64,000 bases of DNA. Source: Propionibacteriaceae bacterium. GTDB lineage: Bacteria; Actinomycetota; Actinomycetes; Propionibacteriales; Propionibacteriaceae. Below the pieces are notes generated by a model. The model saw only the letters and a list, made by a program, of their open reading frames with translations. It ran no database searches and was not told the origin of the DNA. The DNA is taken from NCBI GenBank assembly GCA_031261485.1, contig JAISJO010000082.1, positions 1 to 64,000 of the forward strand. Direction: 5' to 3'. Made by a program: the position numbers and the translations under genes. This document shows positions 2,643 to 34,536 of this stretch, in pieces (position 1 is the first letter of the stretch; the number at the start of each line of letters is the position of its first letter).

Positions 2643-2841
2643 AACGTTGTCGGACCCTTCTTTCCGACAGACTCTCCAGCCGCATTCCTTGACCTCCCAG
2701 CCAGATCCTAGTTCTGGCGAGTAGATGTTCTCGAGAAGTACCGACAATCACTTTCGAAATAGCCTCTTTACGTGGACATGCGCCAGCGGCGCTTGCCAGC
2801 CGGGCGTTGGATTAGTTGGAATAGTCGGATACCATTGCCAT

Positions 2842-7407: not shown

Positions 7408-7448
7408 TATCCTTTGCTCGCGGAAGTCACCGTACTAGGAGATATTTC

Positions 7449-9055: not shown

Positions 9056-9583
9056 ATGGCTCTTCCACCAGGGTCTCCTGGGCCGGGTTTTTCGCCAAGC
9101 ACGCCAGCGCACCCGAGTACGCCTGGAGCACCATTTTCGGTCCCACAGCCCTTTGCCAGCAGCACTAAGAGCGCCCCCCCCCCAGCGAATCCCCCAGGTG
9201 TCTCTGGCGGAGGGACCACCTCGTACAGAGTTGGCCAACCAGCCACTAGTCCAGTCAGTTCCGTTGACCCTCCGTGGGAATTGTACCTGGTGGCCGTTGC
9301 TGCCGTCGTGATTGGTGTTGTTGCGTCGCAGTTCGTCGGCGACAAGACACTGTGGGTGATTCTTCCGTGGGTATGGACTAGCACGACTGGTTTTGTGGCC
9401 ATGGCAAGGTACCAACGGGTCGAGAACAGCCGCCGAACGAACGCGAGGTGGAAATACAAGGACCTTCCCCACCCAAAGTGGTTGCGACTGGGGGTGTTCC
9501 TCATCATTATTGCCGGCATCGTGCGGACCGCTTATCTGGTGGGCAACTATTTCGGAATGTACTGGCCTGGAGGCTTATCATGA
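9056..9583 (+). CDS. Proline-rich small membrane protein, first gene of candidate conflict operon
   Basis: 175 aa; two or more hydrophobic segments (LYLVAVAAVVIGVVASQFV; LGVFLIIIAGIVRTAYLVGNYFG); ATGA overlap with next gene. Confidence 0.65.
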   Translation: MALPPGSPGPGFSPSTPAHPSTPGAPFSVPQPFASSTKSAPPPANPPGVSGGGTTSYRVGQPATSPVSSVDPPWELYLVAVAAVVIGVVASQFVGDKTLWVILPWVWTSTTGFVAMARYQRVENSRRTNARWKYKDLPHPKWLRLGVFLIIIAGIVRTAYLVGNYFGMYWPGGLS

Positions 9584-12489
9584 GGCGGCGTGTCTTCCTG
9601 GCTACCATTGCTGCTGCGGCCTTGGCCCTTGGCTTGCTCGCACCCAACAGCGTCAGCGCGGCCCCAACCGAGGCTCCCGCTGACCCTGTTGCGTCGACCG
9701 CAGTAGCCGCCTGGGCATCCTGCATCTCAGTCAAGAAGACGGGCAACGTGCTAATCCTCGTTGACCAGTCAAGGTCGCTCGCCGACACGGACAGGTCTCA
9801 GTCGCGCGTGAGCGCGGGCCTCTCGGTTCTTGACCGCCTCGTGTCTATATACAGCGAGGCACGAGACCTCAACTTCAACGCTCAGGTAGCCGGGTTTGCC
9901 TCCGACATCGCTCCAGGCATGTGGACTCCACTGAACGCGTCAACCGTCGGCACCCTCAACAGTCGGGTCATCGAGTTGGGTGCCGATGCCAGGTACGAGG
10001 AAACTGACTACTACCATGCTCTGTACGGCGCTCTGAGGCAGTTCGAAACGGCACCGAGCACTGATTGCCGAGCCATCTTCTGGCTGTCTGACGGAATGTT
10101 CGACCTCACAACCAATGCGAACGCATCCGGATTCCCGCCACCGCTGGGGCGCGCTGGGCAGCCCACCAAAGACTACGATCCGGAACAAGTCATTCTCGAC
10201 ACCAATCAGAAAGTCGACGCATTGGAAGCCGCAGCCCAGAAGTCGATGTGCGCTCCGGGCGGCCTGGTCGGAGATGTTCGACGGGCTGGCATTCGCGTCT
10301 TCGGCATCGGTTTCCACAATGATCCTGGCTACTCGTTCGATTTCATGCGCGCTCTGGTTGAAGGCGGACCGTATCTGGGATCGCCTTGCGGCCCGACAGT
10401 GGCGGGCATGACACCCCCCGGTACTTTCACCACAGGCAATGCCGACATCATCATAGACGCACTGGGCGGACTCATACCTGGCACGGATACGCACGTTGCC
10501 CTGTGCCCGGCAATAGATGACGGATCTCCTGCGGACCGGTGTGGGGTGACCTTCGGGCTGCATGAGTGGTTCGACCGGGTCAACCTCCAGGCCTCTGTCA
10601 ACTCGTCATCCGTCAGCGAATTCCAGGTTTTCGTGACCGCACCCAGCGGCGCACGCGTCGAATTGACCAACCCCGGCCAGGGCACACCGGCCGAATCGGC
10701 AATAGGTGGGGTGGGCCTCCGTTGGACCTGGTGGTCCTCTGGATCGGTCAATCTCGACCTGATCGACTCGGAGGCGACTGGATCGGCTGATGATTGGGCG
10801 GGGGCGTGGACTCTTCAGTTATATGGCCAAGTCAAGGACCCTGCGGTGGAGTGCCTGCCCGACGACTCGGCGTCGTGGCCCAACTGCGGCTATGTCAGTC
10901 TATATTTCAATGCGGATGTCGAACCGGTCCTGACCCTCACCGACATCGACAGCGGGCACGCCGTCGTGGTGGCCAACGAAGCACAGTCTGGCCAGGCTGT
11001 CCACGCCAACCGCAACATGGAAGCGGCCTATGCCGTGAGGTCCGAACAAGGGACGCTTGTCACCCGTCTTCCAGAAGGTGTGAAGGGCACGCTGTGCGTC
11101 ACGTACACCTACCCGTCCACCATCCAGGAATTCTGCCCCACCACGTTTGGGCGCCAGCAGTTCGTCGTGCCCGCATCGGATCAGGGCGTGCTCGAAATCG
11201 GGCTGAGATTGAACCTCAGCATCCTCTTGGAGCGAGCTGGCGAGTCGATTTCGACGGCGTTCCAGCCAGTCGAGACGGGTGTCACAATTCCGATTCGACC
11301 TGCCAGTGGGTACCCGGAAATTGATCTGACGCCGATTGACGTCGGCGAGCTGAACGACGACAACGAATTCTCCGTGACGACAACCATCCGCGCCACACTG
11401 GAACCCGGCGAGGCGGGCTGCGTCTGGCTCCCGGCGGGCCAGGAGTGGCCAGTCGAGGGGATTGAGGGCATATCGGCGACATCCGTGTACGACTCACGAA
11501 ACACCTGTCTGACCGTCCCTGGCGGTGGCACAGTCGACCTCCCCGTCACTTTGACAGCAGCCAAGGAGGGTACAGCACTGACTTTCAGCGGCACGCTGAC
11601 GGTCCAGGCAGCCCCCGGAGAGACCGACGATCCACCGCAGAGCGCGTCAGTGCCATTCGTGGGGTCGGCTCGCCATATGAATTCGGTAGTGCGTAATGTC
11701 ACTGCCTTTGGATTCGCCCTACTTGGCGTGCTGCTGCCGTGTGGTATTTGGTGGTTGTTCAAGCGTAGTCGGGCCGTCATCCCGTCAGACAATGGCCTCA
11801 CTGCGTCGAAGTGGCGGGTGCAAGTGGACCACAGCCAGGTCTTGTGCGACGGAAGGCCGTTGGAGGCCCGCAGCGAGGCTGGGAGCAACCACGTGCCATT
11901 GCTGGGCATCCCCCCCAGATGTCGTAGCCTGGAGGTCCTCGGCGTCTCACTCAGGGCCACTGCGGGTGGCCTCTGGGGTGCTGCGCGGGTCAAGGCGACG
12001 CTACCTGGCTCGTATGTGGCGGCCGGGTCCGGCGAGTGGAAGGGTGCCACTCTTGGCGGAGACCACCACGGTCAGCTACCACTTGCGGTCCACAATTCCT
12101 GGCTCGTCGTCGCTCAGCCTGGAACGCCTGTCAATGAAGCCACCATCATTGTGTTGGCCAATGCAGGCCGCAAGGGCGCCATTGACGACATTCTGCGAGA
12201 CATCAGAGAGCGCGCCCCTCGGATTATCGCCGATCTACAGGGAGCCATCCAACGATCAGGAACCAAGGCTCCTGCAACTCCACCCACTGGGCCCTTAGGG
12301 GAGCCAGGACCGACCGGTGGGGGACCTGGACCTGGCCCCATCCCATCTCCCCCGAGTCCATTCCCATCGCCGCCGAGTCCATTCCCATCTCCCCCGAGTC
12401 CATTCCCATCGCCGCCGAGTCCGTTCGCCAACGGACAGGCATCTGCCGTCGGCCCACAGCCACCTGCCCCACACCACCCGTACCGCTGA
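9580..12489 (+). CDS. Secreted/anchored vWA-domain protein with Pro-rich C-terminal tail
   Basis: Signal peptide MRRRVFLATIAAAALALGLLAPNSVSA; MIDAS-like LILVDQSRS; TM FGFALLGVLLPCGIWWLF; C-terminal (PSPPSPF)n. Confidence 0.78.
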   Translation: MRRRVFLATIAAAALALGLLAPNSVSAAPTEAPADPVASTAVAAWASCISVKKTGNVLILVDQSRSLADTDRSQSRVSAGLSVLDRLVSIYSEARDLNFNAQVAGFASDIAPGMWTPLNASTVGTLNSRVIELGADARYEETDYYHALYGALRQFETAPSTDCRAIFWLSDGMFDLTTNANASGFPPPLGRAGQPTKDYDPEQVILDTNQKVDALEAAAQKSMCAPGGLVGDVRRAGIRVFGIGFHNDPGYSFDFMRALVEGGPYLGSPCGPTVAGMTPPGTFTTGNADIIIDALGGLIPGTDTHVALCPAIDDGSPADRCGVTFGLHEWFDRVNLQASVNSSSVSEFQVFVTAPSGARVELTNPGQGTPAESAIGGVGLRWTWWSSGSVNLDLIDSEATGSADDWAGAWTLQLYGQVKDPAVECLPDDSASWPNCGYVSLYFNADVEPVLTLTDIDSGHAVVVANEAQSGQAVHANRNMEAAYAVRSEQGTLVTRLPEGVKGTLCVTYTYPSTIQEFCPTTFGRQQFVVPASDQGVLEIGLRLNLSILLERAGESISTAFQPVETGVTIPIRPASGYPEIDLTPIDVGELNDDNEFSVTTTIRATLEPGEAGCVWLPAGQEWPVEGIEGISATSVYDSRNTCLTVPGGGTVDLPVTLTAAKEGTALTFSGTLTVQAAPGETDDPPQSASVPFVGSARHMNSVVRNVTAFGFALLGVLLPCGIWWLFKRSRAVIPSDNGLTASKWRVQVDHSQVLCDGRPLEARSEAGSNHVPLLGIPPRCRSLEVLGVSLRATAGGLWGAARVKATLPGSYVAAGSGEWKGATLGGDHHGQLPLAVHNSWLVVAQPGTPVNEATIIVLANAGRKGAIDDILRDIRERAPRIIADLQGAIQRSGTKAPATPPTGPLGEPGPTGGGPGPGPIPSPPSPFPSPPSPFPSPPSPFPSPPSPFANGQASAVGPQPPAPHHPYR
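12341..12424 (+). repeat. Four 21-bp in-frame tandem repeats
   Basis: TCCCATCTCCCCCGAGTCCAT / TCCCATCGCCGCCGAGTCCAT alternating A-B-A-B. Confidence 0.9.
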
Positions 12490-12538
12490 TCCGTGACTTG
12501 GGCACAATGACCACACCGAATAACAAGGAGAAATTCAC

Positions 12539-15500
12539 ATGAGACGATTCCTGGCCGTGGGCTGTGGTGGTTCTGGTGCTGCCACCTTGGCCTATATGCG
12601 CGACCACCTGAGCGAGACTCTGGCACGCCGAGGCTGGCAGGGCAAGCTCCCTGCTGGATGGCAGTTCGTCGTCATCGACGTGCCCACTGGAGCGCTCAGT
12701 GACCAGCGCCCAAAGACCCGCCCACCCGCCATCGGCCAGTCGGAGGGTGCGTCTGGCGAAGGGCAATACGTTTCCACCGGCTATCCAAACGGCACGTACG
12801 CCATGCTGGACCAGGCTCTGACCACCCGCCTTTCCGCCGCCACCTCCGCCACCAACGAGGGCGGTGGGCTGAAGTTGTTCGGTTCGTGGGCTCCGCGTGA
12901 CCCGTGGGCAGTGAATATCGCCCTGGCGGAGGGTGCGGGTCAGCACCGCGCCATAGGCCGAGCACTCCTCCTCCAGCATGTCCAGACTGTGCAAACGGCT
13001 CTTGACGATGCCGTCGATTCTCTGGAAGGAGCTGGGTCGGATATGCTCCGCCTCAACCCCTTCTTCCCGGACGACCCCTATTCAGGCGATCCGCCCCTGA
13101 TCCTGGTGGTGTCGTCGATGGCGGGGGGATCGGGCGCGTCGATGGCTTTGGATGTCTGCCGCCTCCTGCGCGCCAACGCCCGCAACCAAGGTCGGCAGAT
13201 TGCTGTCTTCATGATCAGCGCCGATGTCTTTAGCGACAACCGGAAATACTCGGAAGACACTCGCCATGGCGCGATGCCGAACGCGCTGGCCATGTTGGGC
13301 GAGATCGTGGCGGCCCAGATGGGCGAATCAACTGCGCACGACCTCGCCCTGCTGAACGCCGCCGGGGCGGATCACCTGGACGGTGCCCTCTTAGGGGCGG
13401 AGACAGAACTTGCAGTGCCTTTCCAGCGCGTCTTTCCAGTCAGCAACCGGATCGGCGGTGGGGTCAAGCTTGGCGACGGCGGGGCCGAACACATCTTCCG
13501 CGCCTTGGGGCTGGGCTTGGGGTCACTCATGGTTTCGGGACAAACCGCTGTTAACGACTTCGTCTCCATCGACCTGACCAATCCTCCCACCCCACCCAAC
13601 ACCAAGTACTTCGGCTGGGGTGCACGTGACGCCACTCGCCTTGTCTGGGGTTCGTTTGGTTATGCCAGCCTCAGTCTGGGCAGAGACAGGTACGAGCATT
13701 ACGCGGCCCAGCGTCTGGCTGGTGCCAGTGTCCGCAACCTGTTGGACGGACACCTGATTGAGGGACTTAGCAGTCAGGAGTCGGTCAACGCTCTAGCGGG
13801 CAGAGACTGGAGGAAGTTCTGGGAACTGGTCGGCCTGCCGACTCTCGAAGGCGGCGTGGCACCGACTGACGAGGCGGGCCGCTGGTTCGAAGGCGTCTTA
13901 GGGGCAGCAGTGTGTCACCAGCAGGCCAGCCAAGTGATTGGCCGAGTGGTGGCACCGAGAGTGGTCCCACCCGCTGGCCAGGCTGCCGGCTCGCAGTGGC
14001 TCAGCGCAGTTGACGGATGGCTGGCAGACTGTCTGTCACCAGTCGTAGCAGATCTGCGCCAGGCCGCCGAACGCGGCGTCTACGACTGGCAGCAGTCCCT
14101 GCGGGGTCGGACCGAGGCCGCCGTCACCCAGGTCATTGGCGAGCGCGGCTTGGAGTATGCCGCCCAGCTCGCGACATCACTGTCCGATTGGCTGCCCTAC
14201 TTCGTGGGTGCCCTGCGCCAGATTGCTGCCGTGCCACCTCATCCTCTCGAGTTGGGGCCTGAACTCCGCGCCACACTGGGAGGCCTCGCCCGCATCGACG
14301 TGGGGAATGGCACCGACGCGAGGAACGAGGTGCTCGCTCAGGTGACTCGGGAGTCGGCTCGCTGGCTTCAACTGACAGCATGTGCCAAGACCGCCGATCT
14401 GCTAGAGAGCTTCGTGACTGATCTGCTCGCACCACTCATTGGCGCACTGAACGATGCCCAGAAGGGGCTTCGCGCGCTAGCTGAGGAGTCGCCCTCAGCC
14501 TTGGGCAGTGCCGATCTGCGCACATCGGATGTCCAGGCCTGGCCGTCAGATCGAGTGCCCTTGCCTCAGCGCTTCACTCAGGCGGTCAACGAGATTGTTC
14601 TGACGGAGGCGGCCGACTTTCCCGCCCAGTATGAGGCTGATGTCCGAGCCGCCTGGATTCATAACCAGAGCTACGATTCCCGTCAGAATCTGACGTTTGA
14701 AGACGCGCAGAACCTCGTCGTTGGCCAGATTGTGACAGGGCAATGGGAGGCTTCAGGCGGGCAGTCCGCGCCAGGTGGACTATTGACCGGTTTCGACACC
14801 TGGTGGGCGGGCCGGGTCTTCCCCAACGACCCCTTTTCAGGGGCCACGAAGCCGATAGGTGAGGCCACTGTGGGTGTCCATGTCCTGCCCGAGGAGGTCT
14901 TGCGTCGGGCCACGGCGCTCGTGCGGCGGCCCAATGATCAGGCGTTCTCAACCTATACCTCGGTCACCCTGAACCAGTGGCTGCAAGATCCTAGTCAACC
15001 CCACGAACAGAAGCGTCGGGAAGACCTTCTGGCTCGCAAGTTCGTCGAGACTCTGGAGAAGGCTCGTCCACTGGCCTTGGCCGAGCCTCGATTGACCGCG
15101 CTGGCCAACGCGGTGACTGAGCCTCGCTACCGATACCGTTTCTCAACCATCCCCTTCCCTCCGACAGTGGTCGCCCGACTGACTCAACTGCTAAAGGGGG
15201 ACGAGCAGTTGGACCCGACAGCGGTGAACCAGTTCACAGGTTCATGCTCCACCAGTTCAGACGCGCAGTCAGTGGCGGTATTCGGCTCCTACCAGCCTAT
15301 GGCCCCGATCGTCTTTAGCGGACTGCTGCAACCAATTGCTGACCAGTATGGTCGGACGGTCCTGCCGACGGCACGGGACTTGTTCTGGCGCTGGCGGCGG
15401 GCGCGCCCCTTGGGAGCCGCCATCCCGCTGTCGAGGGCGGAGCGCCACGCGCTGGCCGCTGGCTGGTTCATCGGCCAGATCACTGGCCACCTGCTGCTTC

Positions 15501-16135
15501 CTGACAAGGATCGCCCCAACGACTCCATCAAGATATGGGCCAGGATTGCAGATGGCAGCGGACGCTGGCTGGAGTTCCCAAGCCCCTTGCTGACTCCACC
15601 CGGCTTCCACGAAGGTCCCTACCATTTCCAGCCCTACGACTGGCTGCCGGCTGTCCTCGAATCGATTCTGTTGGCCTATGCACGTGTGCCCGTGTCGACG
15701 CTAGCTTCACTGGATCCCTACATCGCCCTCCGCAGTCTGTTTGACAGCGGCGACAAGCCATCTGGAGGCCTTGATCTGCCCAACTTGGCCGCCCGCACAA
15801 TCCTTAAGGCGTGGGCGACCGATGGCATAACTCCGGAGGGCGGTGCCAGTCGGGTGCCGCGTTTGGCAGCGTCCACAGGACCGACCCAGCGCATTGAGGC
15901 GGCCCTAGCCTGGCTTCAGGGTCCCAAAGGGCCCCTTGACACTATCCGCACCACCTTTGACCCAGGCCCACGCGGCGATGCTGGGCGCTTCGCCAAGGTG
16001 AGCACCCGCGAGGCGGCGGCCGCCATGCCCCTGTTCGCCGATGTGGCCATGGATGTCAAGAGGGCAGTGGAAGACATCGTCAAGCTGCTGAACGAAATCA
16101 ACGACGACGACATAGAACCACCGGATCGGTTCTAG
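12539..16135 (+). CDS. Tubulin/FtsZ-like protein (Tubulin_2-like)
   Basis: N-term MRRFLAVGCGGSGAATLAYMRDHL and ILVVSSMAGGSGASMALDVCRLLR (tubulin G-box-like GG[ST]GS); 1198 aa; SD aaggag. Confidence 0.7.
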   Translation: MRRFLAVGCGGSGAATLAYMRDHLSETLARRGWQGKLPAGWQFVVIDVPTGALSDQRPKTRPPAIGQSEGASGEGQYVSTGYPNGTYAMLDQALTTRLSAATSATNEGGGLKLFGSWAPRDPWAVNIALAEGAGQHRAIGRALLLQHVQTVQTALDDAVDSLEGAGSDMLRLNPFFPDDPYSGDPPLILVVSSMAGGSGASMALDVCRLLRANARNQGRQIAVFMISADVFSDNRKYSEDTRHGAMPNALAMLGEIVAAQMGESTAHDLALLNAAGADHLDGALLGAETELAVPFQRVFPVSNRIGGGVKLGDGGAEHIFRALGLGLGSLMVSGQTAVNDFVSIDLTNPPTPPNTKYFGWGARDATRLVWGSFGYASLSLGRDRYEHYAAQRLAGASVRNLLDGHLIEGLSSQESVNALAGRDWRKFWELVGLPTLEGGVAPTDEAGRWFEGVLGAAVCHQQASQVIGRVVAPRVVPPAGQAAGSQWLSAVDGWLADCLSPVVADLRQAAERGVYDWQQSLRGRTEAAVTQVIGERGLEYAAQLATSLSDWLPYFVGALRQIAAVPPHPLELGPELRATLGGLARIDVGNGTDARNEVLAQVTRESARWLQLTACAKTADLLESFVTDLLAPLIGALNDAQKGLRALAEESPSALGSADLRTSDVQAWPSDRVPLPQRFTQAVNEIVLTEAADFPAQYEADVRAAWIHNQSYDSRQNLTFEDAQNLVVGQIVTGQWEASGGQSAPGGLLTGFDTWWAGRVFPNDPFSGATKPIGEATVGVHVLPEEVLRRATALVRRPNDQAFSTYTSVTLNQWLQDPSQPHEQKRREDLLARKFVETLEKARPLALAEPRLTALANAVTEPRYRYRFSTIPFPPTVVARLTQLLKGDEQLDPTAVNQFTGSCSTSSDAQSVAVFGSYQPMAPIVFSGLLQPIADQYGRTVLPTARDLFWRWRRARPLGAAIPLSRAERHALAAGWFIGQITGHLLLPDKDRPNDSIKIWARIADGSGRWLEFPSPLLTPPGFHEGPYHFQPYDWLPAVLESILLAYARVPVSTLASLDPYIALRSLFDSGDKPSGGLDLPNLAARTILKAWATDGITPEGGASRVPRLAASTGPTQRIEAALAWLQGPKGPLDTIRTTFDPGPRGDAGRFAKVSTREAAAAMPLFADVAMDVKRAVEDIVKLLNEINDDDIEPPDRF

Positions 16136-16136
16136 G

Positions 16137-18992
16137 ATGACAGCGGACACTGCACATCTCGCCATCCTGATCGGCGCACCGGGGCCCGCGGACGGAATCG
16201 TTGACATCCTCCAGGACCTGTCGGCAGTTGGCCTGATCACGCCGTGGGTGTGGATCAGCGCCGATGAGTTGCCAGCCAGCGAGCAGAACACGGCCAGTCA
16301 GCAGAAGAGCCCTCCAGTTCCTGCCTGGCTGATCGCTGAAGGCTGCCGCAAGCGCCTGCCCAGTTTGACGGCCTATCTCAGCAGCCTCGGAGGAAGGGCA
16401 CCCGAGCGCTATCTTGTGGGCGCAGTGTGGGCAGTCTCATCGCGGGCCACAGACGTGGACAGGAAAGCGGTGGAGCACCTGATCCGGAGCCTGAGCGTCG
16501 CCAGCGGTAGCGCCAGGATCGACCGAGTCCGGTTGATTCTCGCAGATCAGCAATCAGCCGTTGCGGCTGATCGCCCGCAGGGTGCCGAGGATTCGCCTGC
16601 TTGGAACAGCTACCACAACCTTCTGGTCGAACCCGTCGACTTGTCGGGTCCGGCTGAGCATGCAGTGTCTGACCAATGGGCGCCTCCGCCAGACGCTTCC
16701 ACCCTCGGTCGGCGGGCGGCGCCGGTCGTGGCCAGTGTTTTCGGACTCTGGACAGGCGGTGACCCAGCCGTCTTGCCAGAACGGTCGGCCAATCACACCC
16801 TGCGCATTGTGCGCAGCTTCCACCGGCGGATCGACGCAACCACGTTGGAGGCAGACCTGCGCGCCAAAGTCTTTGAGACCACTGACACCTTGCCGACTCC
16901 TCAGTCCATGCGCGCAGGCGAGGAATGCGTCAACGACCCCCAAGCCGTGGCGAGCATGGCCGAACAGGTCATGGCGGCCCACCCCCGAGTCTTCGTTGGG
17001 GATGCTTTGCCAGACCTGTCTGAACCTGAGGGTGGTCTGATAAGCGCTTGGGAGCGGATCAAGTTCTTTGCAGGTTTCTGGTGGCGGTCGACTCTCAGCC
17101 TGCCTGGCACCTTCATGGAGAGTGTGCGGAGCTCGTGGTATGGTGCCGCCGCCTGGACGGTCAAGCAGGCCCTTGACACGCCCGAGTCGAGAGACACATA
17201 CTACGCCGGCTCCTACCTAGAGGATGGTTCTCCGCTGGCCTGGCAGGAGCGTGTCCGTGCTGTCGACCGAGCCATGACGCAAGTTGACTTGCCTGCTCTT
17301 GACGCGAACGGATCGGGGGCGCGTGCCACCGAAACATCGAGTCAACTGTGGCAAGACATTGAGGGCGCTGTCTTGACGCTGGCCGACGGCATGGACCGCG
17401 CATTCCCAGCATCAAGAGATGGCATCCGGCGGTCGTTTGTGGCCGGCACGGCAGACATCGCCCCAGGACCCGAGACTGGGTTCGCTGTTCCCAGCCCATG
17501 GAACCGGTCCGTTGAGCAAGGAGGCATCAGCGTAGAGCGAATCGGCCCCGCCAGTGCGCTGCTGGCCGAAGATGCCACCCGCCGCCTGCGCGCCATGGCC
17601 GACCAGAGAGGTGATGACGAAGCACGGCAGGTTGCCAATCGCATTGAGCAGTGGTGGGAGCATCAAAAGCAGTCTTTCCTTGGCCGACTCGCTGACCGTT
17701 TGAAAGAGCGCTTCCTGACGTTGGAGAGACTGTCCAACGACGTCGGCCCCGACCTTTCCTTGGAGCCGTTTGACTTCGAAGCCGCGGTTCGCCGCAGCCG
17801 TCGAGTCCTGCGCGGGATTCTGATTGCGACTGTGGTCATAGCTCTCGGCCTGAGCCAAGTAACCCTGGGGCCAGAGTTTCTTCAGTGGTTTCCCTGGCCG
17901 TGGTCGCCTATTCTCGACACCAAGACGGGGGCGGAGGCAATCCTCGGCGTCTTAGCGGCAGGGTTGGTGGCGTCTTTCGGGGCGTTCACCTACTGGCAGC
18001 GCAAGATTTTCCAGGCTCTGAAGCAAATCCGGCGGCGCGACTTCATCACGCCCAGGCTGGCGCAGCGACGCTTCCATGTGGCCAGCGAACTTCGCCTTGT
18101 GGCCGACGCTTCCGCTCGTCTGACCAGTTGGGCGATGGTCTGGGGCGAACTACTGGCGCGGCCATTCGGCCACGATTTGGGTGCAGTCCCAGGCTATTCG
18201 ACCGAATCGGCGGACAACTTGCCCGACGCCGTCAAGTTCGCCAAGGCTGTGGTTTCGCCGCGCGTGGTGGCCGCTGCGGTCACGCCAGTCCGGAACTACC
18301 TGTTCCGTGTTGGCTGGCTGAGCGGACCAGCGGAAGCCCTGCGACGCGAAGTTGGGTACTACATCATTGATCAGGGGCCGCGCATCCTTGAACGCGATCA
18401 ATTCCTGCGGACTGACAGGGCGGATGAACTCGTCATCATCGGCGGGCAACTCGGCCACGAAGACAGTGCCCTGATGCAGCGTGGAGAGGAGGCCTTCTAC
18501 GGCCTGTCGTTCGACGACTGGACCACGCAGTCCGCCTTGCCGCGCTGGGCCGGTTCGGTGGTCAAATGGGGCGTTCCGCCGAATGGGGCCGCCGAGCTGT
18601 GGAAGCGGTGTTTTGTCATTCCTGAACTTGGGCAGCAATCGTGGGCCGCTGGGGGCGGTCTAGCAGCGCAGCCGGGGCCTCTTTCGGTTGACCATCCCGT
18701 GCGTGACGAAGTCCTGTCAGATGTCGAAGATAGCGACGGCAAGCGGACGATGCGGGAATTCTTGGTCGGTCTTGAGCCCGGCAAGACTATTTCGACACGC
18801 GAGGTCGATCAATCTCTCTTGTGGGTAAGCAAGGTCGGACTGAATTATGAGCCTGCGGATGTCGTCCCGCAGTCGGTGGGCCTCTCAACGCATGTCACAT
18901 TGACGCAGTTCTCGACCCCACTGCAAGCCGACGAGACGCGGTTAGTCACTGCCCCCAGGCCTGACGGCACTCAGGTCAGTGTTCAGTTCTAA
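16137..18992 (+). CDS. Large protein with central transmembrane hairpin, operon partner
   Basis: 951 aa; VLRGILIATVVIALGLSQVTL and AEAILGVLAAGLVASFGAFTYW; starts 1 nt after preceding stop. Confidence 0.6.
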   Translation: MTADTAHLAILIGAPGPADGIVDILQDLSAVGLITPWVWISADELPASEQNTASQQKSPPVPAWLIAEGCRKRLPSLTAYLSSLGGRAPERYLVGAVWAVSSRATDVDRKAVEHLIRSLSVASGSARIDRVRLILADQQSAVAADRPQGAEDSPAWNSYHNLLVEPVDLSGPAEHAVSDQWAPPPDASTLGRRAAPVVASVFGLWTGGDPAVLPERSANHTLRIVRSFHRRIDATTLEADLRAKVFETTDTLPTPQSMRAGEECVNDPQAVASMAEQVMAAHPRVFVGDALPDLSEPEGGLISAWERIKFFAGFWWRSTLSLPGTFMESVRSSWYGAAAWTVKQALDTPESRDTYYAGSYLEDGSPLAWQERVRAVDRAMTQVDLPALDANGSGARATETSSQLWQDIEGAVLTLADGMDRAFPASRDGIRRSFVAGTADIAPGPETGFAVPSPWNRSVEQGGISVERIGPASALLAEDATRRLRAMADQRGDDEARQVANRIEQWWEHQKQSFLGRLADRLKERFLTLERLSNDVGPDLSLEPFDFEAAVRRSRRVLRGILIATVVIALGLSQVTLGPEFLQWFPWPWSPILDTKTGAEAILGVLAAGLVASFGAFTYWQRKIFQALKQIRRRDFITPRLAQRRFHVASELRLVADASARLTSWAMVWGELLARPFGHDLGAVPGYSTESADNLPDAVKFAKAVVSPRVVAAAVTPVRNYLFRVGWLSGPAEALRREVGYYIIDQGPRILERDQFLRTDRADELVIIGGQLGHEDSALMQRGEEAFYGLSFDDWTTQSALPRWAGSVVKWGVPPNGAAELWKRCFVIPELGQQSWAAGGGLAAQPGPLSVDHPVRDEVLSDVEDSDGKRTMREFLVGLEPGKTISTREVDQSLLWVSKVGLNYEPADVVPQSVGLSTHVTLTQFSTPLQADETRLVTAPRPDGTQVSVQF

Positions 18993-19002
18993 AGGAGCAA
19001 TC

Positions 19003-21168: not shown

Positions 21169-21171
21169 GCG

Positions 21172-24486: not shown

Positions 24487-24520
24487 TTCCCACGATCCCC
24501 AATGAGGACAGGAGAACCCC

Positions 24521-25603: not shown

Positions 25604-25637
25604 GCCTCATCAACCCAACTATCCTAGGAGACCCGCC

Positions 25638-26903
25638 ATGGCAACCAGTGCTTGCCCTCGCTGTTTCACCCGCTTCAGTGCCGACGCATTGCAGTATGCA
25701 TTTCTCTGCACCAATCCCGACTGCCAGCAGATGCCTGATCAGACCGACCCCGCAGGCGAGAAGGGCGTCGACAAGATTGCTTCGCAGTATTACGGTGCTA
25801 CGGTCCCAGAGCGGCCCTTCTACACCGACGACCCCAAGAAGCGCTCTGCAGGCTTCGTGTGCGCCAAGTGCCATACGGGCAGTCATCTCGTCGAGGCCTG
25901 TCCGGTCTGCCATTGTCGTTTCCCGCTGCCCGACTGGCGGAACTATGCCGTCACGACTGTTGCGATGGCTGGGGCGAAGACCTCGGGCAAGAGTGTCTAC
26001 CTGGCGGTGATGATCCATGAACTGATGCAGTATGTCAAGACAGAACTGAAGTCTGACATGGTCGACGCCGCCGATGCTGATCCCGGCCTGGGAAACTTGG
26101 GAACGAAGAAACGATACGAGAACTACTACCAAAAGAGTCTCTATGAGGCGCGCCAGATGATGGAGGGCACAAAGGAAGCGGACTCGGAACAACGCGAGTC
26201 TCTCGTGTACGACCTCGGATCGATCAATGGCAAGCGTCGTGCCCTTGTCCTGCGCGATGTCGCTGGTGAGGCGTTGGAGAGGGCCCAGACCGATCCGCCG
26301 CTGGACCGCTGGGCCTTCTTCAGCCGGGCTGACGGGGTGCTCTTTCTCTACGACACGGAGCGCGAAGAGCACATCCGCGTCTACCTGGAACAGGATTTCG
26401 AGTTGCTGCCCCTAGAGGAACTCGGAATGGCGCCGGACGAGATCTTGAACCAGGTTCTCAAACTGATTCGGTCGGGGGAGCCGAGCTTCGGCATAGTTCT
26501 GTCGAAATTCGACTATATCCATGCTGTTCGTGAAGTCCAGACGGAAACCGGTCTGCGCCGGGCTGTCGCCAACATTGGGGCGGCGTTCAACCGAGACCCA
26601 GGCATAGATGCCTATCCTCGTGTCGTGGATGGGCAGTATGTTTCCCCCACAGGTCAGGAATGGCTGCTTCTCTGGTGTGAGCTGTATTCGCTGCTGGCTC
26701 AGGTCGGTGCGGACGCTCTGTACGACCGAATAGAGACCCAGTACCCGGCCATCAAACCGTGGCTGTTCGCCGTGTCCTCCCTGGGCGAGCCGGTAGTGGA
26801 CAAGAAGGTCAGCGTGCGCGGCATCACACCATTCAGGGTCCTCGATCCCATCCTGTGGATCCTGACAAACGCTTGGGCCTCAGGAGGTGATGGCCATGAG
26901 TGA
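25638..26903 (+). CDS. Zinc-ribbon P-loop GTPase (DO-GTPase2-like)
   Basis: CPRC...CTNPDC and CAKC...CPVC zinc-binding pairs; Walker A VAMAGAKTSGKSVYLAVMIHEL; VLRDVAGEAL switch-like; VLSKFDYI NKxD-like. Confidence 0.7.
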   Translation: MATSACPRCFTRFSADALQYAFLCTNPDCQQMPDQTDPAGEKGVDKIASQYYGATVPERPFYTDDPKKRSAGFVCAKCHTGSHLVEACPVCHCRFPLPDWRNYAVTTVAMAGAKTSGKSVYLAVMIHELMQYVKTELKSDMVDAADADPGLGNLGTKKRYENYYQKSLYEARQMMEGTKEADSEQRESLVYDLGSINGKRRALVLRDVAGEALERAQTDPPLDRWAFFSRADGVLFLYDTEREEHIRVYLEQDFELLPLEELGMAPDEILNQVLKLIRSGEPSFGIVLSKFDYIHAVREVQTETGLRRAVANIGAAFNRDPGIDAYPRVVDGQYVSPTGQEWLLLWCELYSLLAQVGADALYDRIETQYPAIKPWLFAVSSLGEPVVDKKVSVRGITPFRVLDPILWILTNAWASGGDGHE

Positions 26904-29900
26904 CAACGAACAACTCGTGCCTAGGCAGACAAACGCGACGACTGACCCTGCGGAGAACAACGGCGGGCAAGGGGACGAGTCCCGCCCTGGGGCCATGGGC
27001 ATTGTCGACACGGAAGACACGCGACCCATGTCGTTAGCGGAGCAACTTGGTCTCACCGAAGTAGTCAAGAGCGCCTGGGAGGAGTTTGACGGATGGCGCC
27101 ATAATAACGAAAGGAATGACAGAGGCGTTGTCGCGTGGACCTGGAAGGACGAGTATCCGGATTTTGACACCTGGATAGCGAATGAGGTCAAGAAGGCCGT
27201 GATTCAGATGGCAGAGAGGAAACACAATGGAACAGAACTCGAGCCCGAAGTCCAATATGCGGATCGACTGAAGGTCATACGGTCGGTGGCCGAGTTGTGG
27301 GTCAAAGGCGAGGCCACTGGTCCTGGCCCGAATAGCGAACCTGAAGTCCAAGCAGCATGGACAGAGTTGACCGCTGCACCGGACGGCACACCAGCGCCTT
27401 GGGACCGAGCCAGCGTGCTACAAGAGCTGGCGAAGAACGCCCTCAAGTCCAACTCGCTGCGCCCTCGGCAGGACAAGACGTTCAATTTGGACAAACGCAC
27501 CTTGTCCATCAGTAGTGTTCTGCAGTCGGGATACTCGCAGGAATTCCTGCTGACATCAGCGCGCGACAATATTTCGACAGCGCCATTCAAGTCTTGGCGA
27601 GCGCCATGGAAAGGACGGGACAACGTCCCGAACGCGATCTTCATACTAGTAGGGCTAGTCGTCTGTCTTGTTCTGGCAGTTCTTGCGTGGGCTGTTGCCG
27701 ATATCGTGGACGAGACGCTCCTAGACTTGCCGCTTGGGGTCAGAATCGCAATCGTTATAGTGATCTCCGTGCTGTCGTGGTTCTTGTTCGTCGCGCTCTC
27801 CGAAAAGATGAACATTTGGTATTGCAAGACATTTCCCCGCATGGTGTGGATCAAGGAGAGTGACAAATTCCGCAAGGCGTACGGTATCTGGGAAAGCGAG
27901 ACCCTGTGGGCGGGGGACCTCGCGAAAAAGAACCAGTGGGAAGATGGGGTGATCCCATTGTCGGCACTCTCTTCCGAGGCGGCCGTCAGGCATGTATGGG
28001 AACTCGTACGCAAGTACGTACGACAGTTCCACTCCTTCGAGTTGCGAGTGATGCCACTTGATCGGATCCGCATGGTTGAGGAGGATCTGCTTGTCACTAC
28101 GCAGGTGGTGGCGCAGGTCAAGAATATGCTGAGAGGCGAGAGGCGAATCGCCATCGGACTGGCAGGTCCTCGAGGGTTCGGCAAGACTGCCTCCTTGCGG
28201 CAGATTACCTCAGGCATGACCCCGGGCTTCGGCAAATGTCCATGGCTCTGCTATCGTCCCAGGCTGTGGTGGCGACGAGTCTGGTATGGCTTCCTCTTCT
28301 TGGTACCACTGTTTCGAGGTCGTGCCAGAAAGAATGCGCACAACATGTGGAGCAGGCATGGGGAGCAAGACTCTTCATTGGTGGTGTCCGTTCGCGTCCC
28401 CGCGAATTATGATCACCGCCAGTTTGTCCAATTGGTTGCACGACAGGTGGTGCGAGCCATTAGCTCGTCCGCATGCCAGATCGGCCACCGCCATCTCTGG
28501 CGTCAGAGGTGGGGGGCGGTCGTGACTGCTCTGTTGAGTGCGATCCTGTTGGTCTGGATAGCCTGGTCGTGGGCGGTGGCAGGCTCCCGACGCTGCGCAG
28601 CACCGCGTTGCTGGCCGTGGGCATTCCCGTTCCTTCCTGGAAGAGGGCTGGCCAAATTGCCTTCAGTGGCGGACAGTTGGCTTTCGTTGCTTGTAGTCCT
28701 GGTTGTTGCCGCAGGATTTGTTGTCGTGGCGCAGCGGTTGTGGATGTGGGCATGGAGGAACAAGAGCTTTGATCGAGAGGACGAGAAGCGCCGGAAAACG
28801 ATTCGAGAGGCACGCCAGACAATGGACCCACTAGCTCCGCTGGCTGACCCAGAAAGCCGCAAGGAAGAAGGGGAACTCGAGGTGGATCTCAACTTAGCAA
28901 GGCGCCGCGCCAAGGCCATCATCAAGGTCGCCCTCGAGCAGCACAAGGGCTTTCGCCATCACTATCCTCGTGTTGTGAAGGCGATGAATCGAGTGCGTAC
29001 TCTGCTCGGTGATGCCTGGTGGCAGCGTATGCGTTTCAAGCTAAGTTGGGGCGTGCCAATGGATATCGAGGTGGACACTCGGGACGACGTGCATGCCCAG
29101 GACGTTCTGATCCTGCTCCAGACTCTAGAGACCCTGCTCGATGAATACAGCAGGTCTGGCCAAGCGCCGCTTACAGTCCTGGTCGATGAGGCAGACAAGC
29201 CGGAAAAGAAGGACCGGGTGATCGCCTTCAACGAACTGAAAGACCTGTTCAACCTGAATCATGTTCGTTGGGTGGTAACGGTTAGGCCACAGGACCGAGA
29301 GCGTTTCGTCACCCGACGCCTCATGCAGGACAAGACGTACCTCGACTCGATTTTCCATGAAATCGTTCGGTTGGACGCGCTGTCATACGAGACTCTGAAA
29401 GAGATCGTAGACAAACGGACAGACTATTTCCCCTGCTCGCATGTGTTGGTCGCATTATGTGCCGCTTGGTCGGGCGGTGTCCCGCGTGATTTCGTTCGTC
29501 TGTTGTGGAACTGCCAATGGTTCATGGAAACCAATACTGGTGTCAAGGGAGACGCCATGGCAGCAAAATTCCGCGAGTGGATACTTCGGTTGATGGACGA
29601 GGAATGTGTCCTCGCCCTTAAGGTTGATCCTCACCGGGCAATGACGCTGAAACAATGCCGCAACAGAATCGAGGAAGAACTGCTTGATGGGTATTTCCCT
29701 GGTCCCTCGAATAGCAAAACTCAACTGCGCAGGGCAGGCGAAGACCTGTCGAAAGAGCAAGAGGATGCAGTCAGGTCAATTCTGAATGAAGTGAAGGGCC
29801 TTTCGTCAGGGCTTGGATGGAACTGGGTGCCAGAGGCTATTGATCTGGATCGGGCGGGGATCACGCTAACTGTACCCAACCCAGACACCTCTGAGTCGAC

Positions 29901-30900
29901 CACCGAGACTTCGATCTCCCGATTCGCGTCCGACATCAAGCATGTGGCGTCCCTAGTTGACTACTGCACTGATCTGGCCCAAGTCTCTGATCCAACCAGT
30001 AGCGGAAAGTCGCTTCCCCGCAAGTCGATTGTCAAAGGTGTGTCCTGTTCAGAAGTCGAATTCGCGGTCGAAATGCCGAAGCGCGGAGCGATTGTCCTTG
30101 AGGCGTTGTGGCGGTCAAGAGTCATCGATTCATTGGTGTTTCCAACCGCTGATGATGAGACGCGTTGGACCATCTTTGAAGAGTTGCTTGAGGAGGCGAA
30201 AATCGGCTTGACGATGAAAGACGTTCGTGATCGTCTCACATCCAGAAGTCTTGGAGCGATAACCTACCTAGTAGCGAGCTGCTTCCATGTCGACATCCAT
30301 CCCGGACTCGACGGTCCAAAGAACCAGACACCTGCTGCGGTGAACAGGCTTGTTCTTAGCGTCGCCTTGGATGACTATCCTCCGTCGCAAGTGGTCGCGG
30401 ATGTCATGGACAGCGTGGCATTGGTCACAGACCTCGGCTGCCAGATCTACGCGGCGGCGGTCGGAACACCCCCAGAGCTGGCCGTTGTCGAGTCGGTTCG
30501 TCTGGGCAGCCCACTGGAGGTGGCTCAGGTTGTCGGCGAGGAAGTCAAGGGTGTGCTGAAAGCGTTGCTCAGTGGCAATTTCTTGTGGACGCTTAGAGAC
30601 ATATTCACCAGGGCTGGCCGAAAGAACCACGATGATCTGATAGAGACCGTCATCGCACAGATGACAGCAGAGGTGCAGAAGACTCAAATAGAAACGGAGA
30701 AGGCTCGGGCAGAGACCGAGAAGTTGTTGGCAGAGGCAGATGCTGAGCGGTGGAAAGGAATCGCTATCGTGATCGACGCTCTGGTGAAGAATAGACAACC
30801 GACCCCGACGTCCGAACAACTAGACAGAATTCTGACCGCGCACCACATCAGCGCACTTGAGACCCTCTCGAATTACTCGGAAGCCATCACTGTCCAGTGA
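26887..30900 (+). CDS. KAP-type P-loop NTPase with TM insert and C-terminal coiled coil
   Basis: Walker A GLAGPRGFGKTASLRQ; hydrophobic segments between Walker A and B; Walker B LTVLVDEADKPE; VRWVVTVRPQDRERF; C-term KTQIETEKARAETEKLLAEADAER. Confidence 0.72.
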   Translation: MMAMSDNEQLVPRQTNATTDPAENNGGQGDESRPGAMGIVDTEDTRPMSLAEQLGLTEVVKSAWEEFDGWRHNNERNDRGVVAWTWKDEYPDFDTWIANEVKKAVIQMAERKHNGTELEPEVQYADRLKVIRSVAELWVKGEATGPGPNSEPEVQAAWTELTAAPDGTPAPWDRASVLQELAKNALKSNSLRPRQDKTFNLDKRTLSISSVLQSGYSQEFLLTSARDNISTAPFKSWRAPWKGRDNVPNAIFILVGLVVCLVLAVLAWAVADIVDETLLDLPLGVRIAIVIVISVLSWFLFVALSEKMNIWYCKTFPRMVWIKESDKFRKAYGIWESETLWAGDLAKKNQWEDGVIPLSALSSEAAVRHVWELVRKYVRQFHSFELRVMPLDRIRMVEEDLLVTTQVVAQVKNMLRGERRIAIGLAGPRGFGKTASLRQITSGMTPGFGKCPWLCYRPRLWWRRVWYGFLFLVPLFRGRARKNAHNMWSRHGEQDSSLVVSVRVPANYDHRQFVQLVARQVVRAISSSACQIGHRHLWRQRWGAVVTALLSAILLVWIAWSWAVAGSRRCAAPRCWPWAFPFLPGRGLAKLPSVADSWLSLLVVLVVAAGFVVVAQRLWMWAWRNKSFDREDEKRRKTIREARQTMDPLAPLADPESRKEEGELEVDLNLARRRAKAIIKVALEQHKGFRHHYPRVVKAMNRVRTLLGDAWWQRMRFKLSWGVPMDIEVDTRDDVHAQDVLILLQTLETLLDEYSRSGQAPLTVLVDEADKPEKKDRVIAFNELKDLFNLNHVRWVVTVRPQDRERFVTRRLMQDKTYLDSIFHEIVRLDALSYETLKEIVDKRTDYFPCSHVLVALCAAWSGGVPRDFVRLLWNCQWFMETNTGVKGDAMAAKFREWILRLMDEECVLALKVDPHRAMTLKQCRNRIEEELLDGYFPGPSNSKTQLRRAGEDLSKEQEDAVRSILNEVKGLSSGLGWNWVPEAIDLDRAGITLTVPNPDTSESTTETSISRFASDIKHVASLVDYCTDLAQVSDPTSSGKSLPRKSIVKGVSCSEVEFAVEMPKRGAIVLEALWRSRVIDSLVFPTADDETRWTIFEELLEEAKIGLTMKDVRDRLTSRSLGAITYLVASCFHVDIHPGLDGPKNQTPAAVNRLVLSVALDDYPPSQVVADVMDSVALVTDLGCQIYAAAVGTPPELAVVESVRLGSPLEVAQVVGEEVKGVLKALLSGNFLWTLRDIFTRAGRKNHDDLIETVIAQMTAEVQKTQIETEKARAETEKLLAEADAERWKGIAIVIDALVKNRQPTPTSEQLDRILTAHHISALETLSNYSEAITVQ

Positions 30901-30967
30901 CAAGTCCGTTGCTTTCGGTCACAATCTCTTGAGTTTGGGACTCGAACAAACGGGAGCCCAAACGGTG

Positions 30968-31260
30968 ATGAGCGTATACACGACTCTCAGAGCGACCACC
31001 GACGCACGGATGGTGTCAACGAACTGGCGCAGGCGCAGGGAGTCTCAGCAGCCACAATGATTGGGAGACTCGTTGATTCCGCTTGGTGGCAGTCGGCTTT
31101 CCAGAGTGAACGCGAAGCCCAACGGCAAGATTCAGCCAGCGCCGATGTTGCGCAGGAAGACGCCGAGTGGGAAGAAACCTTAACTGATGGCATCGAATAG
31201 AGCGCGACGAGGCGAGATCTGGACCGCGAAGATGACAAGGCATCTTCCTGAGACTGCGCA
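30968..31260 (+). pseudogene. Decayed toxin-antitoxin remnant (RHH-like antitoxin + MazF-like N-terminus)
   Basis: MSVYTTLRATTDARM then frameshift to NELAQAQGVSAATMIGRLVDSAWWQSAF...DGIE*; overlapping ATG gives MASNRARRGEIWTAKMTRHL resembling MazF start, then homology is lost. Confidence 0.5.
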
Positions 31261-31435
31261 AAGTGATGGGGCCAGCGAACATGTCGTACCTTTGCGACTG
31301 TGGGTCCAGTCTCGGAGGAGGCACCGGACGGCTGGTCTCGGTTCCAGCTCGGCACCCAGAACCACAGGACCTACGAGTTGTTCCGCGGAGTGTCTACCTG
31401 CTCGCAAGTCGCAGCGGAGGTGATATGTTGTCTCC

Positions 31436-33436
31436 ATGGGGACGTGGTTCACGGGTCTTCACCCGATAGTTGCGTTCCTTGTGAATGCCTTTCTCTGGGC
31501 TTTGGGCATTGCCATACTATGCGGCGTTGGCTACGGGATTGGACAGGTGGCTGGTCGAGTCCATCACTGGTGGAAGATGGACATCCGAAAGGAGCAAGAG
31601 TCCCAGGTCTACCGAACCAAGCGACTGGCCCGGCGATGGTGGGCCTCGTGGAGCCGTGCGGTATCTTTCAGTCTCCTCGCGCTGGTGATTTGTCTTGTCC
31701 TGACGGAGCACCAGGACTGGGCTATTGAACATGGGCTTGGGGGAAGCTCCGTCCTCGCTTGGATAGCAGGGGTGCTGCTCGTTGTGTCGTGCATGCGGGT
31801 TGGTTGGACAAAGGAAGTGTTCAAGAGCCTCCCGCTGGTGGAGTGGGCGATCTTCGGTTTGACCGCGACTCTTGGTGCCATTTCTTCCGTGTCGCTCGGC
31901 CGCCTCACTGAGGGGCCTTCAGAAGACGACCTGGGCCCGTTGACAGTTGTCCTTATCGACTGCGCAATCGCGGGCGTTTGGACATATGTTCTTTGGCGCG
32001 TCCTCTGCAACCGCTTCCCATCTCCTGTAGCTGAAATGACATCGTCTCAAATGGCATCCGACGGGGAATTGGAGAGTCTTGGCCTGGATGCTCTGGGCCG
32101 CGCCTCGATTGCGAAGCGACTTGCCTCCTTGATTCTTCATCAGGATCCGCCCTTTACTCTGGGTATCGATGGTGAATGGGGGTCGGGCAAGTCCACCCTA
32201 ATGAACTTTGTTGACGACCAACTGTGGTACGAAACGACGGGAGTGAATCCTGAGAGTCGTGCCCCCGCAAGTCGTCGGCTGGGCTGGGCAGGTGGCAGGC
32301 CGGGCAGGCGCATGGTGCTAGTCAGACTAAATCTGTGGGAGCACCAACATGACGAGAATCCAGTCGTCGCTTTGCTGCAGGCTGCGAGGGACACCTTGCC
32401 TCCTGCCTATCGAGCAGGCGTAAGTGCCGAGATTGAGGGAATTCTAGCCGCCTGCGCATCTGCGGTGGCTTTGGGCGTCGGAGACATTCTTGTCGGAACA
32501 AGCCTCCCGACCGCCGTGGGAATCAGAGACAAACTGGGATCAGCCATCGCAGGCAGGGACGGTCCATTCAGCACTCAGGAGACACAGGCGACCTTGGTAT
32601 CAATGTTCCAAGATGCTGTTGAGACTGTCTTGGAAGTACACGCCGCCGACCGGATTGTCTTTGTCGTCGATGACCTTGATCGCTGCATGCCCGATGTTGC
32701 GTTGGACCTGCTGGAAAAGGTCCATCTGTTCTTTCGTCAGGTCAGGTGCATTTTCGTGCTAGGAGTGGACACGGATATCCTGAAACTCACTGTGACCAAG
32801 CGTTACACTGACGAAGGAGCAGGTGAAAGAGCATCAGACTACGCTGAGAAGTATGTGGAGAAAATCATCACCTTCCCCTACGCTTTGCCGCCGGTCACCG
32901 ACCTAGAACGACGGATCTACCTCTCAAGACTCTTGAACTCCCTGCGACAGACAGACGCGCAGGAAGGACTCTCAGGTCTCAAGATCGCCGAGATTCTTGA
33001 AACCTGGACTGCGGGGTTGGGCGAGAACGCCGAGAGCTTGCGGAGGACCAAACGCCTGGCCAATACCTTCATCCTTCATCAGCGCATACAGAATCCCGAG
33101 TCGGATGCGACCAAGTTGGCAGATGGCGACAGAGTAGCACCCCCACCACATGCGGGTGGAGTATTGGGTACCACTCCCGCCTCCTCAGAGGATCAGGCTG
33201 TCGCAGACGATACTCAGTCCCGCACTCACATGACACTTGTCTACCATGGCGGAGTGAATCACGAGGTGACGGCGCCGAGTTCGATACTGTATCCAGCGAC
33301 CAAAGATTTCGATCCGTGGATACTCGCAGCGGTCACTGCCATCCAGATTCTCGCCCCCCGTGATTTCAAGGAACTGGCTGGCCCGACCGGAGATACCGCC
33401 ATCGAAAGATGGTTCTTCCCAAAGGAGAAGTCATGA
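31436..33436 (+). CDS. KAP-family P-loop NTPase (membrane-associated)
   Basis: Walker A LGIDGEWGSGKSTLMNFV; Walker B RIVFVVDDLDRCMPDVALDLLEKVHLFF; several N-terminal TM segments. Confidence 0.87.
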   Translation: MGTWFTGLHPIVAFLVNAFLWALGIAILCGVGYGIGQVAGRVHHWWKMDIRKEQESQVYRTKRLARRWWASWSRAVSFSLLALVICLVLTEHQDWAIEHGLGGSSVLAWIAGVLLVVSCMRVGWTKEVFKSLPLVEWAIFGLTATLGAISSVSLGRLTEGPSEDDLGPLTVVLIDCAIAGVWTYVLWRVLCNRFPSPVAEMTSSQMASDGELESLGLDALGRASIAKRLASLILHQDPPFTLGIDGEWGSGKSTLMNFVDDQLWYETTGVNPESRAPASRRLGWAGGRPGRRMVLVRLNLWEHQHDENPVVALLQAARDTLPPAYRAGVSAEIEGILAACASAVALGVGDILVGTSLPTAVGIRDKLGSAIAGRDGPFSTQETQATLVSMFQDAVETVLEVHAADRIVFVVDDLDRCMPDVALDLLEKVHLFFRQVRCIFVLGVDTDILKLTVTKRYTDEGAGERASDYAEKYVEKIITFPYALPPVTDLERRIYLSRLLNSLRQTDAQEGLSGLKIAEILETWTAGLGENAESLRRTKRLANTFILHQRIQNPESDATKLADGDRVAPPPHAGGVLGTTPASSEDQAVADDTQSRTHMTLVYHGGVNHEVTAPSSILYPATKDFDPWILAAVTAIQILAPRDFKELAGPTGDTAIERWFFPKEKS

Positions 33437-34536
33437 CTGCCCCAAATGGACGCTTTGCGAGAACACCGCGAGCGCCTTATCGAATCAGCGGCCAGTCGTC
33501 AGTCATGTCTCGCCAAGACACCGAAGAATCCAGGGAACTCCCGCATGTGGAATTGCTGAAGGCGATCCAGAATCATGTGGCAACAGATTCGAAGTTGAGG
33601 CAGGCTTGGCTGAATGCCCAAGAGTTTCCAGACGCCAAAGAACGATTGATTCGCGAGATTCGCAACTACGTCCAGAGAATTACGTCAGGGCATCTGGCAG
33701 ACCCTGACGGTTTCGTGCACGTGCCATTCGCCCACAGAAGCTGGCGCATCCTTGCCAGACGAGAGTACGACGGTCGGCAGCAGGTACTGTTGCTGCTGGA
33801 CGGCCTGCTGAAACAAACCCTGCCCTACCACAATTACGATAGTGCGACGCAATGGCAGACACTGCCGACGGTGACGTGGAATAGCTGCACGCTGCGGCTG
33901 TGGCTGAATTCGGGGACCTCAAGCCCAGACAACGGAGCTAGCGTTTGGGTGGTGCCTGAACAATCGTATGTCTGGACTGACGAGACTACTCCGGGATCTG
34001 CTCTCCCGGACGCCGACTACGGCGTGACCCTACCAGGCGCGGAGGTCTGGGGAGACAAAGGCTTTCTTGCGGAATTCTCCGCGACCGAGGTGAATAGTAT
34101 CCACGTCGAATCAGTTCACACGGACGATGTTTCGTGGACAGCGAAGGCCTATGCAGACTACCTGGCCGAACTGGAGAACAGACACGAGATGTTACCGACC
34201 TACAACCGCGAGGACTGGGTCGCCCAGTGGCGAAAGTCCCACAATCTAAGCACAAATGACCAAGACACAAGAGTCACCTTCCCAGGCGGGACAGACATTG
34301 AGTGTCGTGTGTTCTTGCTCGATATGGAGCAGTGCTCCCATCTCCTAAAGGAAGAGGCAGCGAGAATTGCTCAATTGCCAGATGGCAGGCCCTGTGGGTG
34401 GTGGCTGCGTTCTCCTGGTTCGACGTCAATCGCTGTCGCAGGCGTGAACGACGGCGGTTGGCTGAACCCCGGCCGCTACATCGTGCGCGACAAAACTGGC
34501 GGCGTCCGCCCAGCCTTATGGCTTAATCTGGACTAA
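33433..34536 (+). CDS. DUF6273-like C-terminal domain protein, partner of KAP NTPase
   Basis: C-term GWWLRSPGSTSIAVAGVNDGGWLNPGRYIVRDKTGGVRPALWLNL; ATGA overlap with KAP gene; SD AAAGGAG. Confidence 0.62.
   Translation: MTAPNGRFARTPRAPYRISGQSSVMSRQDTEESRELPHVELLKAIQNHVATDSKLRQAWLNAQEFPDAKERLIREIRNYVQRITSGHLADPDGFVHVPFAHRSWRILARREYDGRQQVLLLLDGLLKQTLPYHNYDSATQWQTLPTVTWNSCTLRLWLNSGTSSPDNGASVWVVPEQSYVWTDETTPGSALPDADYGVTLPGAEVWGDKGFLAEFSATEVNSIHVESVHTDDVSWTAKAYADYLAELENRHEMLPTYNREDWVAQWRKSHNLSTNDQDTRVTFPGGTDIECRVFLLDMEQCSHLLKEEAARIAQLPDGRPCGWWLRSPGSTSIAVAGVNDGGWLNPGRYIVRDKTGGVRPALWLNLD

Follow-up and report, generated by a model that had tools for sequence, protein, structure and literature searches.

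Kaur et al. (2020, eLife, PMC7159879) predicted GAP1-N2/DO-GTPase systems that include an actinobacterial tubulin theme. In the sections of that paper that describe it, the theme combines GAP1-N2, a DO-GTPase with two zinc ribbons, one tubulin extended at its C terminus, an HRDC-bearing FNIII protein, and a membrane protein with vWA, beta-rich, and FNIII regions. A second related prediction is the FtsZl1-centred membrane remodelling system (Makarova and Koonin 2010, PMC2875224), in which a tubulin family has vWA and GTPase neighbours. Our literature search for experimental studies of these operons found predictions only.

Here, we analyse a nine-gene operon (A-I) of an uncultured propionibacterium, predicted to encode a membrane-anchored machine with a GTPase, a tubulin-like protein, and sensor domains of the adhesion type, and located in the window, i.e., the whole stretch of 64,000 nucleotides that was studied. 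Because its domain content matches the theme of PMC7159879, we consider it nearly certain that A-I is a GAP1-N2/DO-GTPase operon of the actinobacterial tubulin theme. Common to both, as far as the paper's account of the theme goes, are GAP1-N2/GAP1-M, the DO-GTPase with two zinc ribbons, a single tubulin with a C-terminal extension, an FNIII protein with an N-terminal helical domain, and a membrane vWA/beta-rich protein. A GTPase-centred system of the kind predicted by the Aravind group had been suspected for this locus at the outset, and rightly so within that account; the accompanying suggestion that the combination might be undescribed fell away, as the set had already been published. The same sections of the paper do not describe A, D, or the vWA protein G for the actinobacterial theme, and the window adds a membrane NTPase, I, in one genus. 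With the FtsZl1 system, A-I shares a divergent protein of the tubulin superfamily with vWA and GTPase neighbours, although PMC2875224 did not define GAP1 or FNIII parts and predicted membrane remodelling as the function. In the published account, GAP1-N2 systems are mutually exclusive with VMAP systems; a scan for VMAP-C gave no match in the window's genome, nor in any control genome. New here are the genus-restricted NTPase I, the linkage of such operons to TerD together with a GAP1-M-TerD fusion, and the recognition of a downstream KAP/DUF6273 pair (J/K) as a separate unit.

Operon layout

The nine genes lie on one strand (+) between 9056 and 30900:

A, 9056..9583, plus strand: 175 aa; Pro-rich N-terminal tail, then hydrophobic/TM segments; conserved first gene
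B, 9580..12489, plus strand: signal peptide, extracellular vWA (DQSRS MIDAS), beta-rich region, TM, Pro-rich C-terminal tail
C, 12539..16135, plus strand: Tubulin_2/FtsZl1-like GTPase domain with a long C-terminal extension
D, 16137..18992, plus strand: 951-aa core protein; alpha/beta N-terminal domain; two TM within a helical middle
E, 18979..21168, plus strand: N-terminal helical bundle (HRDC-like position) and FNIII repeats; cytosolic
F, 21172..24486, plus strand: GAP1-N2 and GAP1-M, C-terminal TM 864-882, extracellular region
G, 24521..25603, plus strand: N-terminal beta domain, then vWA with DxSxS
H, 25638..26903, plus strand: DO-GTPase; two N-terminal zinc ribbons, Walker A GAKTSGKS, DVAGE, SKFD
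I, 26887..30900, plus strand: 1337-aa membrane P-loop NTPase; genus-specific

From A to I, the successive junctions measure -4, 49, 1, -14, 3, 34, 34, and -17 nt, the last being the 17-nt overlap of H and I, which bears out the first description of nine co-directional genes with overlaps or short gaps. The reading frame of B extends further upstream, but the likely start is at 9580, where the protein begins in the manner of a signal peptide (MRRRVFLA), and the start of H was corrected to 25638, the same as in its homologues.

Proteins A-H

Profile searches and alignments confirmed the tubulin-like, GAP1-like, and Zn-ribbon GTPase calls made from the letters of the window. C matched Pfam Tubulin_2 over residues 5-398 of its 1198 aa (E = 1e-43); it is the product of the one Tubulin_2 gene in the genome, and its SSMAGGxGAS loop is invariant. 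F matched GAP1-N2 (5e-13) and GAP1-M (2e-8), both over the cut-off, while its extracellular region, for which Pfam gave no hit, reads by eye as two FNIII repeats. H matched DO-GTPase2 at 6e-6 and 26.5 bits, i.e., 0.5 bit below the 27-bit cut-off, and its alignment displayed eight invariant Cys in two CxxC-type sets, corresponding to two zinc ribbons, as well as invariant Walker A and D-x-x-GE columns, the latter with the conserved Glu in Walker B that marks a TRAFAC-type DO-GTPase. A PDB sequence search with H returned nothing significant. Two vWA proteins were also recognised: B reached 3e-5 against VWA_2 (25 bits against a cut-off of 27), with a signal peptide and a TM segment seen, and G, for which the VWA_2 match was weak, retained the DxSxS motif in a 26-sequence alignment, where S179, S181, and D288 are invariant and D177 nearly so.

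For E, Pfam recognised no domain. Its AlphaFold2 model (27 sequences, pLDDT 81) matched fibronectin type III repeats in Foldseek (1fnf, E = 4e-12), so that the FN3 call was right; residues 11-98 form a helical bundle in the model, with no Pfam hit and no HRDC match by name. The model of D (38-sequence alignment, pLDDT 80) places the two TM segments inside long helices, and a fold search against the PDB gave nothing at E < 0.1. The best fold match of D, the alpha-pore-forming AhlB, was rejected as not significant (E = 0.18). Homologues of A could be aligned in the genomes G004, G007, G019, and G027. Altogether, TM segments or a signal peptide are predicted in five components (A, B, D, F, and I), in line with the membrane-spanning system that had been envisaged.

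The C-terminal tail of B carries four SPPSPFP-type repeats. A [DNS]PF motif recurs in the Pro-rich tails of unrelated operon membrane proteins, with 36 occurrences seen compared to 2.6 in shuffled tails, a count for which the motif was chosen after seeing the data and several of the scanned tails may be wrong frames. These tails include 9056-9270 and 12170-12489 of the window and those of loci L010 and L014; the motif is also present in downstream TM proteins (L022, L024, L027, L036, L048, L051, and L089) and in Pro-rich tails elsewhere in the loci.

Conservation and distribution

We fetched 80 actinobacterial loci in a genome scan and counted the classes of gene order by reading. The order D-E-F-(G)-H is intact in ~52 of the 80, from Propionibacteriales, Mycobacteriales, Microbacteriaceae, and Bifidobacteriaceae; in 18 loci of Mycobacteriaceae, E-F-H is all that is kept, and the remaining loci are truncated. 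In G004, G007, G019, and G027, the order B-C-D-E-F is followed by H, with G recognisable in the nearest two. The original prediction had been staked on a gene order found in other genomes as well, and this order is indeed kept across Actinomycetota, so that the clustering of A-I is more than chance. Such operons are widespread, occurring in Rhodococcus, Gordonia, Mycobacterium, Corynebacterium, and propionibacteria. The 18 E-F-H loci (within L047-L082), which lack recognisable C, D, and G and are syntenic in rapidly growing mycobacteria, represent another GAP1-N2 theme.

The operon is patchily distributed: 31 of 198 genomes of the family have it, as do 3 of 19 genomes of the genus, which is the pattern to be expected if it were an accessory or defence system. 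The tree of the GTPase H mostly follows families, with Mycobacteriaceae, Corynebacteriaceae, and Gordoniaceae forming one clade each, and transfer between families therefore looks rare; the clade of the window stands apart from other Propionibacteriaceae on long branches. Identity to G004 amounts to 64% for C, 53% for H, 38% for E, and 34% for F, and the tubulin is thereby near the level of a housekeeping enzyme in the same genomes (~60%). Of 72,556 plasmid records, just 2 carried a tubulin relative, and of 50,697 phage records, none did.

TerD linkage in relatives

Of the 80 loci, 18 have a TerD gene at most 10 kb downstream of the gene for the GTPase. Among 28 operon-bearing genomes that we tested, 16 have any TerD gene and 12 have none, and in 13 of the 16 it lies ≤10 kb downstream of the operon, compared to 0.23 expected from TerD copy number and genome size; these 13 genomes are not independent, since they are related (many are Gordonia and Rhodococcus). 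Salinibacterium has three TerD genes in its genome, all in a row after H, and in Gordonia araii the sole TerD gene is adjacent to the operon. In three Rhodococcus loci (L037, L041, and L042), the gene directly after the DO-GTPase gene encodes a GAP1-M-like region fused to TerD. The linkage and the fusion point to a candidate input. TerD flanks the operon in many Mycobacteriales and in Salinibacterium, as a likeness to the Ter (TerD/TerC) systems, but the operon is also common without it, and because the window's own genome has no TerD and neither do 12 of the 28 operon-bearing genomes, Ter is not an obligate partner. The text of PMC7159879, as far as it covers GAP1-N2 systems, reports no TerD linkage for them and has a single mention of TerD elsewhere.

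Protein I and the 3′ slot

KAP proteins have TM segments between Walker A and Walker B. I has the same topology, with Walker A at 427, TM segments at 543-561 and 597-615, and a Walker B-like LTVLVDEAD near 767, the last assigned by eye. However, the Pfam KAP_NTPase model does not recognise I, for which only a weak AAA_22 match was found, and the comparison with a KAP profile (hhalign) gave 55% over the Walker A region, with controls at <1%. I is therefore termed a KAP-like membrane NTPase here and kept apart from the KAP family; the likeness that had led to its being called a second KAP consists of topology and a weak profile match. A PDB sequence search with I returned nothing significant.

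I is present in all three genus members that have the operon and in none of the 16 that lack it (Fisher p = 0.001). A search of 198 family genomes yielded these three operon-bearing genus members plus one weak ATPase hit, and among the remaining operons, none with a readable 3′ side had I. In G004, the C-terminal half of I is on another contig (41% identity), and in G007 the frame stops early, near the contig end. A role of I as a family-wide component was rejected, given its absence beside the GTPase gene of a Bifidobacteriaceae relative and the single weak ATPase hit among the other family genomes sampled. In that relative (L080:11067-12185), the gene after the GTPase gene is on the opposite strand and looks by eye like a NERD-type nuclease. 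Lineage-specific genes sit directly 3′ of H, and the fixed additional NTPase I illustrates that lineages differ in what they place in this 3′ slot.

Proposed mechanism and alternatives

We propose that A-I form an assembly that is attached to the membrane, switched by GTP, and able to sense envelope or chemical stress, and possibly invasion, a reading to which we give about an even chance. Its basis consists of observations, namely the gene content and order, the predicted membrane segments, the FNIII fold, the co-occurrence of I, and the TerD linkage in relatives; from these, we infer the complex itself, the direction of signalling, the stress input, and an output through action on the membrane. 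An envelope-facing platform would consist of B with its external vWA, the end of F that lies outside the cell, and three further membrane proteins, A, D, and I; there, an envelope change, be it chemical or envelope stress or an invader, would act as the trigger. The signal might then pass from F, the GAP1 protein, and E, the FNIII/helical adaptor, to H, and the GTP state of this DO-GTPase would control the assembly of the tubulin-like C with the vWA adaptor G at the inner face. This assembly would in turn act on the membrane, most likely via D and, in this genus, also via the NTPase I. The conserved D is a candidate executor without a known fold match.

In favour of this stress-sensing assembly, we count the domain match to the theme of PMC7159879, the intact order in ~52 loci, the five components with predicted TM segments or a signal peptide, the TerD linkage, the largely family-wise H tree, and the rarity of tubulin relatives on plasmids and their absence from phage records, as well as the absence from A-I of recognised effector domains such as nucleases, peptidases, or TIR (Pfam, and PADLOC on the eight proteins B-I, which gave no match). 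Against it, we count the patchy distribution, the relatedness of the TerD-bearing genomes, the missing TerD in the window's own genome and in 12 of the 28 operon-bearing ones, a literature search that yielded no experiment on the system, the separate position and long branches of the window's clade in the H tree, and the lack of a fold match for D.

The published prediction (PMC7159879) of an anti-invader conflict system, as set out in its account of these systems, describes a function of A-I that we consider possible but less likely: the FNIII and vWA parts would sense phage, the GTPase would set the threshold, and either the assembly or a 3′ variable component (here I) would kill or disable the cell. 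It fits the patchy occurrence in family and genus, the faster divergence of the sensor-like parts E and F relative to the tubulin, and the lineage-specific genes directly after H. The same reading has to contend with A-I showing no recognised effector domain, with the blank PADLOC result for B-I, with the absence of tubulin relatives from phage records, with an H that is inherited largely family-wise, and with a literature search that found no experimental test of it. Defence against phage is indicated by no test here.

A more tentative idea, which we regard as unlikely on the whole, is that the operon serves a stress response of Actinomycetota linked to TerD, as its arm for membrane assembly, and is not dedicated to phage killing; its membrane proteins would dock on a shared partner via repeated [DN]PF motifs, and one genus would use I, a dedicated KAP-like membrane NTPase, instead of Ter input/output.

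Quite unlikely, in our estimate, is a machine for membrane remodelling or vesicles that has a divergent FtsZ/tubulin filament as its basis (PMC2875224). The tubulin-superfamily core with vWA and GTPase partners is as in that study, the membrane proteins A, B, D, F, and I would suit such a role, and so would the long helices around the two TM segments in the model of D; yet the filament is hypothetical, filament elements are missing in the tubulin family according to PMC2875224, and a patchy presence even within one genus is unlike a basic cell function.

The KAP/DUF6273 pair

Downstream of the operon lies a further pair of genes:

J/K, 31436..34536, plus strand: KAP NTPase and DUF6273 protein, 28-nt overlap

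Pfam upheld the identities first given to both, with J matching KAP_NTPase at 2.7e-38 and K matching DUF6273 at 9e-11. J belongs to the KAP NTPase family along with PifA and QatA; its score against QatA is 119.7 bits, far under the QatA cut-off of 600. In the interval between I and J (30901-31435), fragments look MazEF/PemIK-like by eye, and Pfam gives nothing for the toxin-antitoxin remnant that had been suggested there, a candidate that we rejected.

J/K is a separate KAP-DUF6273 unit and not part of A-I. In G004, the one relative that could be read at this point, I is followed by a gene other than J or K; KAP-DUF6273 is one fused protein in L124 and L127, from two genus members that lack the tubulin gene (G008 and G002, respectively), and a second copy in the window's own genome (L125) is also fused; and the presence of J relatives does not follow that of the operon. 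The original prediction of a KAP effector coupled to the GTPase and tubulin-like switches is consequently left without support, and one extended system with the pair as its effector is very improbable, even with J/K on the same strand 535 nt after I. J/K looks like a split form of the genus' fused KAP-DUF6273 and is a candidate stand-alone system.

Flanking genes

In an island/empty-site comparison covering eight genomes of the genus, the regions on either side of the CoA-activase gene shared no synteny with the window, and an insertion site is therefore not definable. At 2725-3515, a two-gene pair comprises an AbrB-like gene, assigned by eye, and a PIN domain gene (Pfam 5e-17), and is probably a toxin-antitoxin pair. 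Adjoining the operon on the minus strand (4457-8492) are octopine-dehydrogenase-like, NTP-transferase/aminotransferase, and LicD genes, possibly a phosphocholine-type surface modification cluster.
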